From Anaerolineae bacterium (lineage in GTDB: Bacteria; Chloroflexota; Anaerolineae; DRVO01): a stretch of 38,531 bases of DNA. Where the stretch lies: assembly GCA_013178015.1 (NCBI GenBank), contig JABLXR010000005.1:1-38531 (forward strand), in the 5' to 3' direction. Below, in pieces: positions 3,491 through 36,345 of the stretch; position 1 is the stretch's first letter; every line of letters starts with the position of its first letter. The translations under genes were made by a program, and so were the position numbers. Under the pieces are notes generated by a model, which had not been told where the DNA came from, did no database searches, and worked only from the letters and a program-made list of their open reading frames with translations.

Positions 3491-3657
3491 TGGCGCGCGT
3501 GGGCGCGCGCACTCCTCGGACGGAGGTACGCCAAGCGCGGCGAGCAAGTGGGAGTATAGCGCGCGTGGGCGCGCGCACTCCTCGGACGGAGGGTGCACCA
3601 GGCGCGATGGGCCGGTGGAAGCATGGCGCGCGTGGGCGCGCACTCCTCCTAGAGAGG
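3491..3657 (+). repeat. Repeat family C: tandem array, three copies, 66-67 bp period
   Basis: A 36-bp unit occurs at 3491-3526 and again identically or nearly so at 3557-3592; a shortened version lies at 3624-3657. Its core is GCGCGCGTGGGCGCGCGCAC followed by TCCTCGGACGGAGG. The intervening 30-31 bp segments are related to each other (each ends in a GGTGGAGGCA or GTGGGAGTA type phrase). This is therefore a tandem repeat of about 66 bp and not a set of unique spacers. Isolated copies lie at 2478, 7181 (inverted), 7335 (inverted) and 7614. Confidence 0.85.
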
Positions 3658-7334: not shown

Positions 7335-7360
7335 CGAGGAGTTCGCGCGCCCACGCGCGA
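7335..7360 (-). repeat. Inverted copy of repeat family C
   Basis: CGAGGAGTTCGCGCGCCCAC then GCGCGA is the reverse complement of the repeat-C core (GCGCGTGGGCGCGCGNACTC plus CTCG) with very few changes. This is the closest isolated match to the array at 3491-3657. Confidence 0.75.
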
Positions 7361-17642: not shown

Positions 17643-18788
17643 ATGGACGTGTACGCAGAACTGGGGATAGTGCCTCTCATCAACGCTGCCGGCACCCTTA
17701 CGCGCTTGAGTGGGTCCTTGATGCCGCCCGAAGTGGTGGAGGCCATGGCCGCAGCGGCTCGCAGCTTCGTCGACATGGATGAACTGCACCTGGCAGCCGG
17801 CCGTCGAATCGCTGAGCTGATCGGCGTCGAGGCGGCTCACGTCTGCAACGGTGCGGCGGCGGGCATTGCCCTGATGGCCGCCGCCTGCATGGCCGGGAGC
17901 GATCGGGCCAAGATCGCTCAACTGCCGGATACCACCGGCATGAGGCACCACTTCGTCATCCAGCGGGCCCATCGTAACCCGTTCGACCAAGCCCTGCGCC
18001 AGGCCGGGGGCGTTTTCGTCGAGGTGGGCCCCGGAGCCGCCGAGCTGGACGACGCACTGGGCAACCACGTGGCCGCCGTCTACTACACCTTGTCATGGTT
18101 CTGCTTCGGCGAGGCCCTTCCCCTACCGGATGCGGCCCGTATCGCTCACGATTCCGGAGTGCCTCTCATTCTGGACGCAGCGGCGCAGGTGCCCCCGGTC
18201 ACCAACCTATCCCAGTTCGTTGAGTTGGGTGCCGACTTGGTCACCTTCAGCGGCGGCAAAGCTATCCGCGGCCCTCAAGGCAGCGGGCTCATCCTGGGCC
18301 GAGCCGATCTAGTGGAGGCTTGCCGCCTGAACGACAACCCCCACATGGGCATCGGACGCCCCATGAAGGCAAGCAAGGAGGACATCGTCGGCCTGGTGAA
18401 GGCGGTGGAACTGTACGTCACCAAGGACCATGCGCAGGAAGCCGAAGTGTGGGAACGGCGGGTCAACTACGTGGTCAATGCCCTGTCCGACCTGGACCAC
18501 GTGAAGGTGGCCCGCCGCACCCCGTACGGCATCGGGCAGCAGGTGCCCCTGGCAGCCATCAGCTGGAACGTGGAAGCGATCGGCCTGAACTACGCCGAGG
18601 CGGCTCGGCAGCTACTGGAAGGAAGCCCTCGCATCGCCGTGCGGGTAGTGACGCCCGACAACTACGCTTTCGCCGGCTTCACCCAGGGCGAGATCCGCGT
18701 CTACGCCGATAACCTCCAGGACGGAGAAGAGGTTGTCGTCGCCCGCCGCCTGCGCGAGGTGCTGACGAGGAGGGCTCAGGGAACCTAG
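17643..18788 (+). CDS. SelA-like PLP-dependent enzyme (possible amino-sugar-acid ammonia lyase)
   Basis: A 381-aa fold-type I PLP enzyme starting at ATG 17643. The PLP Lys is in VTFSGGKAIRGPQGSGLILG, preceded by the cofactor Asp in VPLILDAAAQVPP. The N-terminus (LGIVPLINAAGTLTRLSGSLM) is the hallmark of the SelA/DgaE-like group. At 381 aa it lacks the extended N-terminal domain of genuine selenocysteine synthase. Related proteins include D-glucosaminate-6-phosphate ammonia lyase. The amidohydrolase at 14365 is the type of partner usually adjacent in such clusters; an aldolase lies at 19679 on the other strand. The stop codon overlaps a palindromic repeat (18783-18870). Confidence 0.85.
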   Translation: MDVYAELGIVPLINAAGTLTRLSGSLMPPEVVEAMAAAARSFVDMDELHLAAGRRIAELIGVEAAHVCNGAAAGIALMAAACMAGSDRAKIAQLPDTTGMRHHFVIQRAHRNPFDQALRQAGGVFVEVGPGAAELDDALGNHVAAVYYTLSWFCFGEALPLPDAARIAHDSGVPLILDAAAQVPPVTNLSQFVELGADLVTFSGGKAIRGPQGSGLILGRADLVEACRLNDNPHMGIGRPMKASKEDIVGLVKAVELYVTKDHAQEAEVWERRVNYVVNALSDLDHVKVARRTPYGIGQQVPLAAISWNVEAIGLNYAEAARQLLEGSPRIAVRVVTPDNYAFAGFTQGEIRVYADNLQDGEEVVVARRLREVLTRRAQGT

Positions 18789-18870
18789 CTCCCCAGCCCC
18801 CCTTCCCTGCAAAGGAAGGGGAGACGCACTCCCCTTTCTCTTCAGGAGAGGGGCCGGGGGAGAGGTTTCC
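18783..18870. repeat. Repeat family B: palindromic element filling a convergent gap
   Basis: The element starts with CCTAGCTCCCCAGCCCCCCT, has inner inverted segments (CTTCCCTGCAAAGGAAGGGG) and ends with GGAGAGGGGCCGGGGGAGAG plus GTTTCCC. It begins at the stop codon of the SelA-like gene and ends at the stop codon of the convergent isomerase gene. It may therefore serve both as terminator. Related sequences lie at 29141-29190 and inside dnaE2. Confidence 0.75.
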
Positions 18871-24192: not shown

Positions 24193-25365
24193 TTACTGCA
24201 TCACCGTCACCGGGCGGCCAGCCTCGGCTGACTCCACGATGGCGGCCACGACCGCGGTCTGCTTCCAGCCGTCCACGTGGTTGGGCAGGGGGCCGAGGTG
24301 GGAGGCGCTGGACGGCGTCAGGGTGTCCTCCAGGATGGCGTTCACGAAGTGTTCCACCAGCACCGTGGGATGGGCCAGCGATTCACCCCGGAATTCGAAG
24401 GCAGGCACAAGCCGGCCACCGCCGGCAGCCAGATGCCCCGTTGTGGGAGTGGGCCGGTGCAGGAGCACCCCCACGTTGGCTCCTGCCGCCAGGAGGTGCT
24501 GTTGGTGGGTGAGCGCTGCCTCTGGGGTCAGGTCCGCCTTCAGGTTGGCCCGCCAGCCTGGCGAGCCGCCGAAGCCGGGCCGCTTGTTGTAGATGAGGGT
24601 GCCCTGAGCTCCCGAGAGGCTGATGTAGAACTCCACCAACTCGTCCATGTGCCGGATCCACTCTGCCTTCACCCGCACCCGGGCCCCGCTATTGAAGGTC
24701 AGGTAGGCATCATAGAGATCGGGGGTGTACTTGAGCACCTCCCGCTGCGAGATGGCGTACACGTCGGTCACTTCAGCGGGGGCCATATACCAGCGCAGGA
24801 GGTCTACCACGTGGCTGAGCAGGAAGTGGGCGGTAGAGGAGCCTCCGGCCCACTCCCGGGTGCGGGCCCCCCACATGGCGGTGGGGACGCTGATGTTGTC
24901 ATCCAGCCGCACCTCGCCATAGACGACCCTCCCCAGCAGGCCTTCCTGTACCACGTACCGGGTTGCCACGTCCATGGACCCCGCTCGATTGGCAAAGTTG
25001 ATGAACAACCGAGCGCCGCGCTCCTCCACCTTGTCGCAGATGGCGGCCGCGTCCTCACGGCTGGTGGCCAGAGGCTTTTCCAGGATGAGGTTGGGCACCC
25101 CAGCCTCCAGAGCCGCCACTGCCGGCTCACGGTGCAGCGGGTCCGGCGTGGCCACCACTACCAGGTCCAGGCGATGCTCCTGAAGCATCCGACGGTAGTC
25201 ATCATACGCTTGAGCGCCGGCACCGGCGGCCACGTCGTCGGCCGCTTCGCGCCGTATGTCCGCCACAGCGACCACGTCCACCGACGGGTTCGCCCGCAGA
25301 GCCTCCACGTGTTTGCTTCCCAGGATTCCCAGCCCGATCACGCCGGCCTTCAGTCTGGCGGCCAC
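24193..25365 (-). CDS. Gfo/Idh/MocA-family NAD(P)-dependent oxidoreductase
   Basis: A 390-aa protein of normal length. The N-terminal Rossmann fold shows KAGVIGLGILGSKHVEALRA, and the family EKP motif is in LILEKPLATSREDA, where the Lys is catalytic. The C-terminal alpha/beta domain (YGEVRLDDNISVP onward) provides the sugar site. Such enzymes oxidise or reduce inositols, sugars and related polyols. The start is GTG 25365 with GGAGG 5-6 bp upstream. It lies 72 bp upstream of the amidohydrolase gene in the reverse direction and may be unrelated to it. Confidence 0.9.
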   Translation of the reverse strand: MAARLKAGVIGLGILGSKHVEALRANPSVDVVAVADIRREAADDVAAGAGAQAYDDYRRMLQEHRLDLVVVATPDPLHREPAVAALEAGVPNLILEKPLATSREDAAAICDKVEERGARLFINFANRAGSMDVATRYVVQEGLLGRVVYGEVRLDDNISVPTAMWGARTREWAGGSSTAHFLLSHVVDLLRWYMAPAEVTDVYAISQREVLKYTPDLYDAYLTFNSGARVRVKAEWIRHMDELVEFYISLSGAQGTLIYNKRPGFGGSPGWRANLKADLTPEAALTHQQHLLAAGANVGVLLHRPTPTTGHLAAGGGRLVPAFEFRGESLAHPTVLVEHFVNAILEDTLTPSSASHLGPLPNHVDGWKQTAVVAAIVESAEAGRPVTVMQ

Positions 25366-25497: not shown

Positions 25498-26547
25498 CTA
25501 GAACTCCCTCACCACCCAGCGGGAGACGAACTGAGCCTCGTCTAGCTCCCCCTGCAGGAACTTGGAGATGTCCGGCAAGCGGGCCCCTATCAGGGCGGCG
25601 GCGTTTCCCTGCGAGGTCGCGATCACTACCGCTACGCTGTCGAGGTCTGCCTCGGCCCCGGCTGCGAGGGCCACCTGGTAGGCGGTGATGAATATGGCCC
25701 CCAGGGGCAAGCGAAGGTTCTCCTCGCTCTCCTCCTGCTCCAGCGTAAGGTAGAGAGTGCCGATGGCCACTCGAGCCCCACCCTGGTCCCGAGCGTCCAC
25801 GATCACCACCCTACGGATGTCGTAGATCGCTAGCGCCTCCAGCATAGCTGCCGCCAGCGCCTCGTCCTCCGGAGTGCCGTTCACGGCTGCGCCAGAAGGT
25901 ACGGCCGTCGCCGTTGGAGCGGCGGTAGCAGTGCTGGTCGCGGCAGCCGTAGCCGTCGCCGTGGGCGGGACCGGCGTCGCCGTTGGAGCGGGGGTAGCAG
26001 TGCTAGTCACGGTGGCCGTAGCCGTCGCCGTGGCGGTCGAGGTAGGCGGGACGGGCGTCTCCGTAGGAGTGGGAACCGCCGTCGGCGTGCTAGTCCCGGT
26101 GGCTGTGGCCGTAGCGGTTGCGGTGCTCGTTGCCGTGGCGGTAGCCGTCGCCGAGGGCGTGATGGTGGGCGACGCTGTCGGCGTGCTGGTCGCCGTGGGC
26201 AGCTCCGTCGGCGTGGGAGAGGGCTCGACGGGGGTGGGAGAGCTCTCTGGCGTCGACGTCAGAGTGGCAATGATCAGGGTCTGGCCTACCTCGATCCGGT
26301 CGGGATTCGCGATCTGGTTGACCTCGATCAGATCCTGCACCGACACGCCGAACGACCGAGCAATGCGGCTCAGGTTGTCCCCCCGGACCACCGTGTAGAC
26401 GATGGGCTCGGGGGGAGGAGCCGTTGGGGTGTCGGTGGGGACGGTCGTAGCGGTGGACGTTGCGGCCGTCTCCGGTGTCGGCGTGACCGGGACACACGCC
26501 ACTAGGGCAACGGCGATCGCAATGAGCAGGCAGGCTCTAGGCGTCAC
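25498..26547 (-). CDS. LysM-domain lipoprotein with long Thr/Ala/Pro linker
   Basis: A 349-aa secreted protein. A lipoprotein signal peptide ends in the lipobox LVAC (Cys about residue 18). A LysM domain covers residues 50-95 (YTVVRGDNLSRIARSFGVSV, then DLIEVNQIANPDRIEVGQTL), which binds glycans such as peptidoglycan. Residues 97-220 are a low-complexity spacer of TATATAT, TPTPT and VPPT repeats, probably spanning the wall or glycosylated. The C-terminal 125 residues form an alpha/beta domain (IYDIRRVVIVDARDQGGARV, AIGTLYLTLEQEESEEN) not recognised by me. Start GTG 26547, with GGAGAAG about 8 bp upstream. Confidence 0.88.
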   Translation of the reverse strand: MTPRACLLIAIAVALVACVPVTPTPETAATSTATTVPTDTPTAPPPEPIVYTVVRGDNLSRIARSFGVSVQDLIEVNQIANPDRIEVGQTLIIATLTSTPESSPTPVEPSPTPTELPTATSTPTASPTITPSATATATATSTATATATATGTSTPTAVPTPTETPVPPTSTATATATATVTSTATPAPTATPVPPTATATAAATSTATAAPTATAVPSGAAVNGTPEDEALAAAMLEALAIYDIRRVVIVDARDQGGARVAIGTLYLTLEQEESEENLRLPLGAIFITAYQVALAAGAEADLDSVAVVIATSQGNAAALIGARLPDISKFLQGELDEAQFVSRWVVREF

Positions 26548-30091: not shown

Positions 30092-33000
30092 ATGTCCGGC
30101 TACGCCGAACTGCACTGCCATTCCCATTTCTCCTTCCTGGACGGGGCCTCCCCGCCGGAGGTGCTGGTGCAGAGGGCCCTCTCGCTAGGCCTGGAAGCTC
30201 TGGCCCTCACTGACCACGACGGCCTCTACGGCAGCGTCCGCTTCCACCGGGCGGCCCTCCGAGCCGGCATCAGGCCGATCGTCGGCGCCGAGATGACCCT
30301 CACCGACGAGAGCCACCTCACTCTTCTGGCCCGGGACGCCCGCGGCTATGCCAACCTGTCCCGGCTCATCTCGTACGCCCGTTGTCGCCAACCGAAGGGA
30401 GTCTCCCGGCTGGACCCTGGACTGCTGGCGGAGCACGCCGAGGGGCTGATCTGTCTGAGCGGCTGCAACCTGGGCCCGGCCGCGCGGCTGATACTGCGGG
30501 GAGACCTCGAGGGGGCCGAGCGCCTCCTGGCCCAAATCGCCTCCTGGTTCCCCGCGGGCGACTTCGCCGTGGAGGTGCAGCGCCAGTTCCGGCGGGAGGA
30601 CGGGCCCTTGGTGGCAGCCCTGGCCCATCTGGCCGGCCGATTAGGACTGCCGGTGGTGGCGACTGGCAACGTGCACTACGCCACTCGGGAGGAATCCCGA
30701 CTGCAGGATGTGCTGGTCTGCATTCGGCACAACGTAAGCCTGGCCGAGGCCGGGCGACTACTGCGCCCTAACTCAGAGGCTTACCTGCGCTCGCCCAGGG
30801 AGATGCAGGAGCTCTTCGCCGATCTGCCCCAGGCCCTAGAGAACGCCGCCGCCGTCGCCGAGCGGTGCCAGGTGAGCCTGGACTTCTCCGATCTGGCCGT
30901 GCCCGAGTACCCGGTGCCGGGGGGCATGGCAGCCGATGACTACCTGCGGCAGCTATGTGAGCGGGCTCTACCGGAGCGGTACGGGGGGGAAAGGCCCTCC
31001 CCTCCTAAGCGCGCTTCCTGCTCACGGGGGAAGGAACCAGGGGGTGAGGGCTCTTCCCTTCTCTCGGCCGCCAGGCGCCAACTGGACCACGAACTCGAAG
31101 TCATCCGCCAAACGGGCCTGAGCCAGTACTTCCTCGTCGTCTACGACATCGTCCGCCACGCCAGGCAGGAAGGCATCCGCTACCAGGGGCGGGGCTCGGC
31201 GGCCAACTCCATTGTCGCCTACCTCTTGGGCATCACTGCCGTGGACCCCCTGGCCCACAACCTCCTCTTCGAGCGCTTCCTCTCGGTAGAGCGCTACAAC
31301 GTAGACCACGCCATGCCCGACATAGACCTGGACTTCGAGCGGGACCGGCGCGAGGAGATCATACAGTACGTCTACCAACGCTACGGCTGGGAGCACACCG
31401 CCATGGTGTGCACTCTGATCACCTTTCGCGCTCGCAGTGCCATCCGGGACGTGGGCAAGGCCCTGGGCTTCGCTCCCGAGGCTCTAGACCGGGTGGCTAA
31501 GTCGGTAGACTTCATGCGCGCCTCGGAGGTAAGCGCCGAGGCGCTCGGCCACGTGCTGGGCGAGGACGCCGACACCGAGCGCTGGCAGCTGCTCTTCGAC
31601 CTTTGCCGGCAGATTGATGGTTTCCCCCGTCATCTGGGCATCCACGTGGGCGGCATGGTGGTGACTCGCAAGCCGCTGGTCGAGGTAGTGCCGGTGGAGC
31701 CAGCCACCATGCCAGGCCGAGTGGTCATCCAGTGGGACAAGGACTCGGCCGAAGACGCGGGGCTCATCAAGATAGATCTGCTCAGCCTAGCCATGCTATC
31801 CGCCATCGGCGAAGCGGTGGACCTGATCGAGGAGCGCACCGGGGTGCGGCCGGCGGTGGAGAACCTGACCCTGGACGACCCGGCCGTCTACGACCTCATC
31901 TGCAGGGGCGACACCATCGGCGTGTTTCAGGTCGAGTCTCGGGCTCAGGCCCAGATGCTCCCTCGCCTGCAGCCCCGCAACTTCAACGACCTGGTGGTGG
32001 AGGTGGCCCTGGTCCGACCCGGGCCCCTTCAGGGGGGCATGGTTCACCCCTACCTGCGCCGACGCCGCGGCCAGGAGCCGGTGCGCTACGAGCACCCGGG
32101 GATGGAACGGGCCCTGGCCGACACTCTGGGCATCGTGGTCTTTCAGGAGCAGGTGCTCATGGTGGCCCGCGACGTGGCCGGGTTCAGCGCCGGCGAGGCG
32201 GAGCTGCTGCGGCGGGCCATGAGCCGCAAGCGCTCCCACGAAGAGATGGAGGCCCTACGCCAGCGCTTCGTGACCGGCGCCATGGCCAATGGCATACCTG
32301 AGGAACAGGCTCACCAGGTTTACGATCGGCTGTCCGCCTTCTCCGGCTTCGGGTTCAACCGGGCCCACGCGGCCTCCTTCGCCCTGCTCACCTACGTCTC
32401 CGCCTGGCTTAAGCTGTACTATCCCCTGCCCTTCTACGTGGGGTTGCTCAACAACCAGCCCATGGGCTTCTACTCCCCCTCGGTGGTGGTGGAGGACGCC
32501 AAGCACCACGGTGTCCGCCTCCTACCGGTGGACGTAAACCTCTCCGGAGAGCGGTGCACCTTGGAGGATGGCGCCATCCGGCTAGGGCTCAACTACGTGC
32601 ACGGGTTCGGGCCCGAGGTACGCCAGGCGGTGGTCTCGGCCCGGGGGAATCGGCCGTTCTCCGGGCTGAACGATTTGGTCCGACGGACCCGATTGGGCCG
32701 CGAGGCCCTGGAGGCCCTCATCATGGCCGGCGGGTGCGACCGGTGGGGCCTGCCCCGCCGACAGCTGCTGTGGCGGCTGGGGCGAGCGCTGAAGGGGAGG
32801 GCCGACCTAACCCCCCCAGTCCCTCCTTCGGCAGCCTCAGCCCAGGCTCTTCTGGGCAGAGGAATGGAGGAGCCCTCGTCTCCCGCCCTTTCCAGGGGAG
32901 GGATTAGGGGTGAGGTTCCCTCTGGATTCCTCCTCGACGACCTGCCCGACGTCTCGCTGCCCGAACTCACCCCCAACGAGGCGCTGGTGGCCGAGTACGC

Positions 33001-33355
33001 CTTCACCGGCGTCAGCAGCGGCTCCAGCCCCGCCTCCTTGTACCACAAGGCCCTCGCGCGGGCCGGAGCCGTCAGCAGCGCCGAGCTGGCGGCCGCCCCC
33101 AATGGGGCCTGGGTGCGCGTGGGTGGCCAAGTGGTGGTGCGCCAGCGGCCTCCCACCGCCAAGGGGTTCACCTTCATCACCGTCCAGGACGAATGGGGCC
33201 AGATGAACCTGGTGCTCCGCCCCGACCTCTACCCCAAGTACCGACTGGACGTGCGCGCCCCCGGCCTCCTGGCCGAGGGCGTGGTCGAGCGGGACGCGGG
33301 CGTGATCAACGTTCGGGTGGAACGGCTGACTCCCCTATCTCCCGAGCTGCGCTGA
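30092..33355 (+). CDS. dnaE2: Error-prone DNA polymerase III alpha subunit (DnaE2/ImuC)
   Basis: A 1087-aa polymerase. The open frame continues upstream to 29630, but that part is unlike any polymerase, and YAELHCHSHFSFLDGASPPE begins right after ATG 30092. PHP domain: residues about 1-280 with HCHSHF and LTDHDGLYG. Palm: catalytic Asp410 and Asp412 in PDIDLDFERDRR and Asp562 in IKIDLLSLAML. QVESRAQAQMLPRL, HPYLRRRRGQEPV and LLNNQPMGFYSP are DnaE2 signatures. The C-terminal OB domain (GQVVVRQRPPTAKGFTFITV) is typical of DnaE2. It normally acts with ImuA and ImuB in translesion synthesis; neither is nearby. Two stretches, residues about 298-323 and 905-944, look like inserted repeat DNA. No good ribosome binding site is visible, so the start is a best guess. 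Confidence 0.95.
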   Translation: MSGYAELHCHSHFSFLDGASPPEVLVQRALSLGLEALALTDHDGLYGSVRFHRAALRAGIRPIVGAEMTLTDESHLTLLARDARGYANLSRLISYARCRQPKGVSRLDPGLLAEHAEGLICLSGCNLGPAARLILRGDLEGAERLLAQIASWFPAGDFAVEVQRQFRREDGPLVAALAHLAGRLGLPVVATGNVHYATREESRLQDVLVCIRHNVSLAEAGRLLRPNSEAYLRSPREMQELFADLPQALENAAAVAERCQVSLDFSDLAVPEYPVPGGMAADDYLRQLCERALPERYGGERPSPPKRASCSRGKEPGGEGSSLLSAARRQLDHELEVIRQTGLSQYFLVVYDIVRHARQEGIRYQGRGSAANSIVAYLLGITAVDPLAHNLLFERFLSVERYNVDHAMPDIDLDFERDRREEIIQYVYQRYGWEHTAMVCTLITFRARSAIRDVGKALGFAPEALDRVAKSVDFMRASEVSAEALGHVLGEDADTERWQLLFDLCRQIDGFPRHLGIHVGGMVVTRKPLVEVVPVEPATMPGRVVIQWDKDSAEDAGLIKIDLLSLAMLSAIGEAVDLIEERTGVRPAVENLTLDDPAVYDLICRGDTIGVFQVESRAQAQMLPRLQPRNFNDLVVEVALVRPGPLQGGMVHPYLRRRRGQEPVRYEHPGMERALADTLGIVVFQEQVLMVARDVAGFSAGEAELLRRAMSRKRSHEEMEALRQRFVTGAMANGIPEEQAHQVYDRLSAFSGFGFNRAHAASFALLTYVSAWLKLYYPLPFYVGLLNNQPMGFYSPSVVVEDAKHHGVRLLPVDVNLSGERCTLEDGAIRLGLNYVHGFGPEVRQAVVSARGNRPFSGLNDLVRRTRLGREALEALIMAGGCDRWGLPRRQLLWRLGRALKGRADLTPPVPPSAASAQALLGRGMEEPSSPALSRGGIRGEVPSGFLLDDLPDVSLPELTPNEALVAEYAFTGVSSGSSPASLYHKALARAGAVSSAELAAAPNGAWVRVGGQVVVRQRPPTAKGFTFITVQDEWGQMNLVLRPDLYPKYRLDVRAPGLLAEGVVERDAGVINVRVERLTPLSPELR
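30981..31060. repeat. Repeat family B-like element inside dnaE2 (first)
   Basis: GGGGGGAAAGGCCCTCCCCT ... GGGGGAAGGAACCAGGGGGT plus GAGGGCTCTTCCC has the opposed CCCTCCCC/GGTGAGGGC arms of the family. It encodes Pro/Ser/Arg/Gly-rich residues between RYGG and ARRQLDHEL, a point where DnaE2 proteins normally run on without a gap. Confidence 0.65.
32806..32922. repeat. Repeat family B element inside dnaE2 (second)
   Basis: The left arm is ACCTAACCCCCCCAGTCCCT and the right arm GGGGAGGGATTAGGGGTGAG plus GTTCCC; the reverse complement of the right arm begins ACCTCACCCCTAATCCCTCC, close to the left arm. An inner hairpin, GCCCAGG-CTCTT-CTGGGC, lies at about 32839-32857. It adds about 40 Pro/Ser/Gly-rich residues in frame between the fingers/tail region and the OB domain. 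Confidence 0.8.
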
Positions 33356-34871: not shown

Positions 34872-36299
34872 ATGCTCAAGGTCGGTTTTGGCGAAGCGGA
34901 CATCACCCCCGCGCTCGGGCTACCTCTGGCGGGAATGCTGGACCCGCCCCGGGCCCAGGGGGTGCGCTGGCCCCTGTATGGCCGGGTGGCCCTCTTCGAG
35001 GCTGGGGGTCAGCGAGCCGCCTTGGTGAGCCTGGACCTCGTGGCGCTCGTCTACCCTACGGTTCTGGAGCTGCGCCAGGCGCTGGCCGGCCCCGGCGGCC
35101 TGGCGCCTGAAGATATCATGATCTCCTGCCAGCACACCCACCGGGCGCCCTACACCGTGCCGGTCATGGACGAGCCGATGGACTTCGCTTACATAGACAT
35201 CCTGCGCGACCGCCTGGTGGAGGCCATGCGCGCCGCCGCTGGGTCGCTCGGACCGGCCAGGCTCAGGGTAGGCCACATTCAGGCTCCCGGCTGGACCTGG
35301 AACCGCCGGCCGGTGTACCGCGGCAGGAGCAGCAGTTGCGAGTGCCCGCACGAGCAAGTAGGCACTCAAGGCCCCGTGTCGGGGCCCGACTTCCTGCGCA
35401 TGGAAGGGCCGGAGGACAATGAGCTGATCGCCCTGGCCGCGGAAGACGAGTCCGGCCGAGTGCTGGGTGGCATGGTGAATTTCGCCTGCCACGCCACGGT
35501 CATGGGGAGCCTACCCTACTACTCCGCCGACTTCAGCGGCGCCCTGGTGGAGGAGATGGACGCCCGCCTGGGCGGCACGTTCATGTTCGTTCAGGGCGCC
35601 GCCGGCAACCTCTGGGCCCACGACGAGCGCACGGCCTGGCCCGGTAGCACCGGCGGCGAGGAGCACAACCGGGCCATGGGGGAGGCCCTGGCGGACAAGG
35701 CCGTCGAGGCGCTGACGGCGGGCGGGTACGTGGCGGGCGAGGCGGTGCGGGTGGAGCGTCGGGTCCTCAGCATACCTCAGCGACAGCCGACTCGCGAGCA
35801 GGTGAACCTGGCCCGCTGGTACCTGGAGCACCGGCCGGCTGACCTGGACGAGGACGAGTTCACCCGCCGCCTCTACGGCCACGACTACACCTTCTACCAC
35901 AACAGCCCCCGGGTGCAGGAATGGTTCTGCCGGGAGACGGTGGCTATGTGGGAGTGGCAGCGCCATCAGGCCGTGCGCCAGCCCAGCGACGCGGTGGAGG
36001 TGATGGCCATCTCGGTGGGGGATAGCCTGGCCTTCGTGGGCTACCCGGCGGAATACTTCACCGAGTTCGGTTTGGAGACCAAGGCCCGCTCGCCCTTTGC
36101 CCACACCATCGTGGCCGAACTGGCCAACGGTTGGGTGGGCTACGTGCCCACTCAGCAGGCCTTCGCCCACGGCGGCTATGAGACCCGGCTGGCGTACTCG
36201 AGCCGGCTGGTGCCCGAGGCGGGGGACATCATGTGTCGCGCCGGCATCGGGCTGCTGCACCTGCTAGCCGCAGCCGCAGCGCCCCCGGTGATGCCGTAG
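34872..36299 (+). CDS. Neutral/alkaline ceramidase-family hydrolase
   Basis: A 475-aa protein; ATG 34872 is preferred to ATG 34860 because GGGAGG lies 4 bp upstream. The N-terminus KVGFGEADITPALGLPLAGM is the family signature. Metal and catalytic region motifs are visible: MISCQHTHRAPYTVPV (HTH metal site), VNFACHATVMGSLPYYSADF and FMFVQGAAGNLWAH, the last replacing the usual QGNSGD. No signal peptide is present, whereas classic ceramidases are secreted. Bacterial relatives beside sugar isomerase and dehydratase genes probably hydrolyse other amides or glycosides; the substrate is unknown. Confidence 0.85.
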   Translation: MLKVGFGEADITPALGLPLAGMLDPPRAQGVRWPLYGRVALFEAGGQRAALVSLDLVALVYPTVLELRQALAGPGGLAPEDIMISCQHTHRAPYTVPVMDEPMDFAYIDILRDRLVEAMRAAAGSLGPARLRVGHIQAPGWTWNRRPVYRGRSSSCECPHEQVGTQGPVSGPDFLRMEGPEDNELIALAAEDESGRVLGGMVNFACHATVMGSLPYYSADFSGALVEEMDARLGGTFMFVQGAAGNLWAHDERTAWPGSTGGEEHNRAMGEALADKAVEALTAGGYVAGEAVRVERRVLSIPQRQPTREQVNLARWYLEHRPADLDEDEFTRRLYGHDYTFYHNSPRVQEWFCRETVAMWEWQRHQAVRQPSDAVEVMAISVGDSLAFVGYPAEYFTEFGLETKARSPFAHTIVAELANGWVGYVPTQQAFAHGGYETRLAYSSRLVPEAGDIMCRAGIGLLHLLAAAAAPPVMP

Positions 36300-36345
36300 G
36301 GGCGAACCTCGCGTTTCCCCGTGGGCTCGTGTTCGCCCGTGGGCA
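36298..36345 (-). repeat. Repeat family A copy
   Basis: The minus strand reads CGGGCGAACACGAGCCCACG, then GGGAAACGCGAGGTTCGCCC and CTAC. It has the outer arms of the palindrome at 1906-1926 and 1991-2011 with about 16 extra bases inside. It abuts the stop codon of the ceramidase-family gene. Confidence 0.65.

Follow-up and report, generated by a model that had tools for sequence, protein, structure and literature searches.

Rickettsia palindromic elements (RPEs) are palindromes of about 100-150 bp, part of them intergenic and part in frame within genes, where they form tolerated peptide inserts (PMC10969869, PMC2229807). REPs of the GTAG/CGTC type inside genes were described in 2013, with DnaE2 explicitly among the tagged proteins; these intragenic REPs encode mostly 20-30 residues, and neutral insertion into flexible loops was suggested (PMC3733652). 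For the intrastrand-triplex motifs called PIT/TMECO, all copies in E. coli K-12 are intergenic (PMC4666352). A first-pass annotation of the DNA analyzed here proposed that two palindromic intergenic repeats had entered a dnaE2 gene, and stated that colonization of coding sequence by this family is not known to have been described. Novelty of this sort cannot be kept for the phenomenon in kind, as RPEs and GTAG/CGTC REPs are known and DnaE2 genes with REPs have been on record since 2013 (PMC3733652).

The window, the whole stretch of 38,531 nucleotides that was analyzed, belongs to contig 5 of genome G000 (4.57 Mb, 97 contigs). The dnaE2 product scores 1136 bits against NCBIfam PRK05672 (cut-off 939), contains the Pfam domains PHP, DNA_pol3_alpha, finger and HHH_6 in this order, and is matched by DnaE structures in the PDB by sequence and by fold; judged by these matches it is an error-prone C-family polymerase. 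A second DnaE, 42% identical to DnaE2, is encoded on contig 34. Repeats were searched with a covariance model, R1, built from five copies in the genome, neither dnaE2 insert included. The reading frame is kept through both inserts, as had been stated. The features are, in window coordinates:

18781..18869, plus strand: intergenic full-length copy of the element between open reading frames ending at 18788 (plus strand) and 18871 (minus strand); R1 member, 93.9 bits; DNA fold z -3.57.
30092..33355, plus strand: dnaE2, error-prone DNA polymerase, 1087 aa, carrying both inserts (NCBIfam, Pfam and PDB matches).
30993..31053, plus strand: insert 1, probable shortened copy of the element (outer stem and one inner hairpin), about residues 301-322; R1 18.5 bits.
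30993..31006, plus strand: 5' pyrimidine arm of insert 1, GGCCCTCCCCTCCT (sequence).
31039..31051, plus strand: 3' purine arm of insert 1, AGGGGGTGAGGGC (sequence).
32803..32919, plus strand: insert 2, full element with the first hairpin region enlarged, the whole extension covering about residues 904-945; R1 44.0 bits.
32806..32815, plus strand: outer 5' arm of insert 2, CCTAACCCCC, kept in the insert of the sister species (sequence).
32895..32902, plus strand: purine arm of the second hairpin of insert 2, GGGGAGGG, with ATTA between it and the outer arm (sequence, R1).
32907..32915, plus strand: outer 3' arm of insert 2, GGGGTGAGG, kept in the insert of the sister species (sequence).

The element is about 89 bp long (range roughly 60-150) and folds into two hairpins enclosed by an outer stem. 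Outer arm CCTNACCCC is followed by a first hairpin, a spacer of about 10 nt, the second hairpin, a further 2-4 nt and outer arm GGGGNGAGG. Copies elsewhere in the genome share this architecture, with ACCTNACCCC and GGGGNGAGGT on either side of the same hairpins and spacers, and alignments A1 and A2 give the ends as ACCTNAC...GNGAGGT. The intergenic copy at 18781-18869, one of the five R1 seed sequences, has the arms CCTAGCTCCCC and GGGGGAGAGG, a variant of those first given for 18783-18870. In an alignment of R1 matches from relatives, fitted to the model (94 rows, about 49 loci), the outer stem is paired in 96-97% of cells, so that terminal inverted repeats are present, as in MITEs. The hairpins covary: compensatory change clearly exceeds both controls, at 152 double-change cells versus 57.7 in shuffled and 16-30 in slid controls, which leave some relatedness.

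Each half of the element is a pyrimidine-purine-purine block, the kind named potential intrastrand triplex (PIT/TMECO). The mirror match between the third arm and the second is 6.78 versus 6.53 when permuted, a small difference beside the Watson-Crick values of 8.29 versus 7.31. The PIT/TMECO motif CCCTCNCCC-N3-6-GGGNGAGGG-N3-GGGNGAGGG, at no more than 1 mismatch, has the same three-block layout as the element, in which the G runs are shifted by one; this layout is clean at loci such as C5:18845, C30:113996 and C30:122556, and the dnaE2 inserts follow it more loosely. When 438 kb were scanned for the three TMECO blocks, 53 matches were obtained versus 45 in shuffled and 38 in reversed sequence; only the tightest matches are meaningful. 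The literal arm pattern was no commoner than its reversed control, and a looser form (3 mismatches) gave 116+119 matches versus 111+112 in the controls, swamped by other G-rich repeats.

Several other repeats were observed. A dispersed G-rich family, GGAGAGGGGGAGAGGGGGAGA, has about 20 or more copies (G000 C2:52057, C22:12729, C5:99879 and others), and a third dispersed repeat, GGATAGGGGACAGGGGATAGG, has several copies in G000. Within the window, both direct and inverted copies of a repeat around CGGGCGAACACNAGGTTCGCCC are present (1901-2012, 25285-25306, 36293-36321), CGCGCGTGGGCGCGCGCACTCCTCG repeats with an inverted copy lie at 2480-2500, 3494-3584 and 7335-7359, and a unit resembling GTCGCCGTGG is imperfectly repeated at 25898-26216, probably in a coding region.

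Insert 2 is clearly a copy of the dispersed element of about 89 bp by sequence comparison. R1, from which it was left out, gives it 44.0 bits, with an E-value of 2.8e-9 for the window and 3.3e-7 genome-wide; it can be aligned over its full length to the copy in a glycosyltransferase gene (G000:C17:53880) at z 10.3 against shuffles, and with four other copies at z 5-7. Its arms CCTAACCCCC and GGGGTGAGG are exactly those originally described. BLAST of insert 2 against its own genome returned short chance-level matches only, so similarity was tested by the covariance model. The folding energy of neither insert stands out from shuffles (z -0.38 and -0.75 for the two), and their assignment therefore rests on the model, the alignments and the covariation.

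The site of insert 2 is the linker after the helix-hairpin-helix domain. It holds 71 residues in the window, 82 in a sister of the same genus (L038/L068) and 30 in a genus of the same family (L039/L067); Chloroflexota usually have about 30-39 residues here, with 45-75 in some lineages, and the linker varies (30-75 residues) in other phyla. Long linkers of other lineages are mostly non-palindromic, which marks the site as generally permissive. The original statement that DnaE2 proteins normally have no extra sequence at these places thus holds here only in part. Growth of a low-complexity Pro/Ser/Gly-rich linker through slippage or through drift, in a genome of high GC content and with a merely compositional likeness to the intergenic repeat, would agree with the variability of site 2 in other phyla (non-palindromic extensions occur, e.g., in L109, L115 and L141), with folding energies no better than shuffles and with the modest score of insert 1. 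It is contradicted by the full-length match of insert 2 to a model of unrelated loci at the genome-wide E-value given above, by insert ends that are exactly common to the sister, and by the same element lying in frame in many unrelated proteins. For insert 2 this explanation is largely refuted, and overall it is highly improbable.

Insert 1 can be assigned moderately well from its sequence as a degraded or shortened copy of the same element. The match to R1 is modest (18.5 bits, E=0.013 over the window), the E-value being about 3e-5 if scaled to the roughly 80 bases already singled out by the protein alignment. The 3' arm AGGGGGTGAGGGC is present as first reported; the 5' arm is GGCCCTCCCCTCCT, not CCTAACCCCC, and a single inner hairpin is retained. 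The insert occupies the loop between a helix ending at residue 297 and a helix starting at 323, flanked in the DnaE2 alignment by helices around 'ERY' and 'RRQLDHEL'. This site has 43 residues in the DnaE2 of the window versus 14-28 in nearly all of about 100 DnaE2s, in agreement with the expectation of no extra sequence, and insert 1 is missing from it in these proteins. The DnaE2 of L070 (Chloroflexi FW602_bin.16, SCTZ01000132.1) has unrelated inserts at both same sites; its site 1 insert is a near-perfect 30-bp inverted repeat unlike insert 1 (fold z -9.3), the only similar site 1 case with a clear inverted repeat among the approximately 100.

Both dnaE2 stretches very probably go back to the insertion of a dispersed palindromic element, non-coding and about 89 bp long, that is tolerated in frame. 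In the proposed course of events, copies would land at many places, and a copy within a gene would persist only if it kept the frame, had a suitable length and lay where the protein can accommodate 20-50 disordered residues. DnaE2 would offer two such places, the loop flanked by the helices at 297/323 and the linker that follows the helix-hairpin-helix domain. The AlphaFold model of DnaE2 has a mean pLDDT of 85.2, with values <50 at residues 300-320, 645-650 and 904-947. Both inserts are among these lowest-confidence segments and are accordingly predicted to be disordered within a polymerase that selection appears to keep functional. The initial comparison with tolerated, RPE-like in-frame insertion is upheld by copies genome-wide, several of them intragenic, by the predicted disorder and by related DnaE2s lacking the inserts.

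The alignment with related Chloroflexota showed lineage-specific presence, as DnaE2 of the same-family genus G002 has neither insert and insert 2 is shared with the sister L038 of the same genus; site 2 is variable in many lineages. The sister's contig begins after site 1, so that its comparison with the window covers site 2 alone. There, insert 2 is at the same site with identical ends, CCTAACCCCC and TTAGGGGTGAGG. The interiors align poorly, and the sister's own hairpins are well paired (fold z -5.5). Within insert 2, dN is 0.69 and synonymous sites are saturated, while dN/dS of dnaE2 is 0.108 upstream and 0.251 downstream of it; by these estimates the flanks are under purifying selection and insert 2 drifts. 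For the two species compared, the different interiors could stem from a nested insertion, from conversion by a different copy, from hairpin-templated mutation or from separate insertions at one site. As a tentative and rather doubtful proposal, the outer arms may have been kept between the two species, at a dS of about 0.7, while the inner hairpins were replaced by new, well-paired ones, the palindrome being renewed by a DNA-level process (template switching, copy replacement, gene conversion) faster than drift destroys it; if so, such elements would supply fast-evolving disordered linkers to host proteins.

That other copies exist in the genome, on which the original reading depended, is confirmed by 15 distinct R1 loci at E<0.001, five of them the R1 seeds; 5 of the 15 lie in frame in the middle of a gene. 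Among class-level relatives, represented largely by metagenome assemblies, R1 matches at E<=0.001 were obtained in 31 of the 60 genomes that were searched, the own genome being one of them; the highest number for a single genome was 53, over both strands. Besides dnaE2, the in-frame copies in the own genome are in genes for HemW, an Eco57I-type methylase, a prepilin peptidase and a membrane glycosyltransferase. The HemW copy sits between Radical_SAM and HemN_C, where eight relatives have shorter or different sequence. The prepilin peptidase and methylase copies replace or extend an existing short linker and are less clean than those in HemW, dnaE2 and the glycosyltransferase; in DnaE2, HemW and the glycosyltransferase, orthologs without the in-frame insertion were found. 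HemW and the prepilin peptidase were also compared by sequence with the PDB, which did not resolve their insertion sites. The loop of HemW that carries the element (G000:C5:87155-88489) has a different extra stretch in the sister (G001 contig 140, L258) and an extension in G011 (L260) too.

In-frame copies of relatives with Pfam support (8 of 45 loci, taken non-randomly from among the strongest listed matches, in a count that omits gene-disrupting copies) are in GH2, CbiA, an S33 hydrolase, a CO-dehydrogenase small-subunit type, RsmF, DUF7948/SBBP, an Eco57I methylase and GSDH, the last placed after the signal peptide. About 13 of 60 loci are in frame inside conserved genes, and at least 13 such copies exist besides insert 1. 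A pre-adapted reading frame of the element was considered and rejected, as 51% of element frames are open versus 59% in random genome stretches. The element is read in different frames and from either strand across host genes, which together with this openness, no greater than by chance, argues against selection for a particular peptide; the in-frame copies fit tolerated selfish DNA rather than a selected peptide.

Domestication would mean that the insert peptide, or the mRNA or DNA structure, serves DnaE2 through clamp binding, regulation or a raised mutation rate, the last having been speculated for REP-tagged repair genes by authors who thought REPs in such genes non-fortuitous (PMC3733652). 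Conservation of the outer arms in the sister is in keeping with such a role. Moreover, insert 2 adjoins a linker that in some related DnaE2s carries QLSLPL-like sequences, which we take to be a clamp motif. The insert 2 peptide, however, is only 38% identical between window and sister, with 13 gap columns, versus 87% and 78% in the flanks; the frames in use differ between genes, and dnaE2 is the sole DNA replication or repair gene among the approximately 13 host genes found. A function for DnaE2 is accordingly very unlikely, and the tolerated insertion of a dispersed element is preferred.

The copies are probably mobile and the dnaE2 inserts probably neutral for the polymerase; the copies are diverged, so that any recent mobility is hypothetical. 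Mobilization might proceed by single-stranded hairpin DNA or by repair slippage. Compatible with insertion of a dispersed element, and concerning its mobility, is the proposal that the elements are REPINs moved by a host RAYT. The hairpins form an inverted doublet, the own genome holds one Y1_Tnp gene, and such a gene is present in 28 of 31 R1-positive versus 17 of 29 other genomes (Fisher p=0.007, uncorrected for kinship). Against this, the element ends bear neither a GTAG nor a CGTC tag, Y1_Tnp matches are missing from some of the genomes that contain the element, and 30 Y1_Tnp loci (about 1.5 kb on each side) had no convincing copy, the best R1 E-value being 0.12. With no RAYT gene flanked by the element at these 30 loci, RAYT mobilization is unsupported at the locus level and is considered unlikely. 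A parental IS was sought via Y1_Tnp only, and these 30 loci yielded no transposase tied to the element.

Compared with the cases found described in open-access full texts, the repeat family, its occurrence in this phylum and a shared insert with a rebuilt interior are new; the phenomenon itself is known. Palindromic colonization of coding sequence now includes a case in Chloroflexota (class Anaerolineae) and a PIT-like family, whose best-studied members, in E. coli, are all intergenic. Many genomes and about 13 host genes provide a natural set of in-frame insertions for mapping tolerance of disorder, and the shared insert of known relative age offers a handle on the persistence of palindromes inside genes. 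For annotation, Pro/Ser/Gly/Arg stretches of the 'LTPxPxP...RGGxGGE' type in these proteomes may be translated repeats.

Like the MITEs ERIC, NEMIS, RU and BOX, the elements are small non-autonomous repeats, some fused in frame to host ORFs; they showed no target-site duplication (insert 2, by eye) and no parental IS (Y1_Tnp search). With PIT/TMECO (PMC4666352) they share the pyrimidine-purine-purine block, arms of about 9 nt, a second loop of about 3 nt, for which CCG-like and TTA-like forms both occur here, and frequent inverted pairs. The third arms are outside in this element and inside in two E. coli loci read, and R1 matches E. coli PIT pairs weakly, at about 15 bits; because of this opposite pair orientation and low score the element is called PIT-like, not a member. 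Intragenic GTAG/CGTC REPs are likewise short palindromic repeats, often dimers, within ORFs (PMC3733652). They differ by GTAG or CGTC tags and shorter stems, whereas the ends of this element are rich in C/G (CCTNACCCC/GGGGNGAGG) and its two hairpins lie within an outer stem; these end sequences rule out identity with GTAG/CGTC REPs, and the bias toward repair genes was not seen for this element. RPEs belong to a different phylum; the present element is used in several frames and on either strand and is known from sequence and models, whereas one RPE protein has been assayed. As with RPEs, the element is dispersed over both intergenic and coding sites, the latter as tolerated in-frame peptide inserts.
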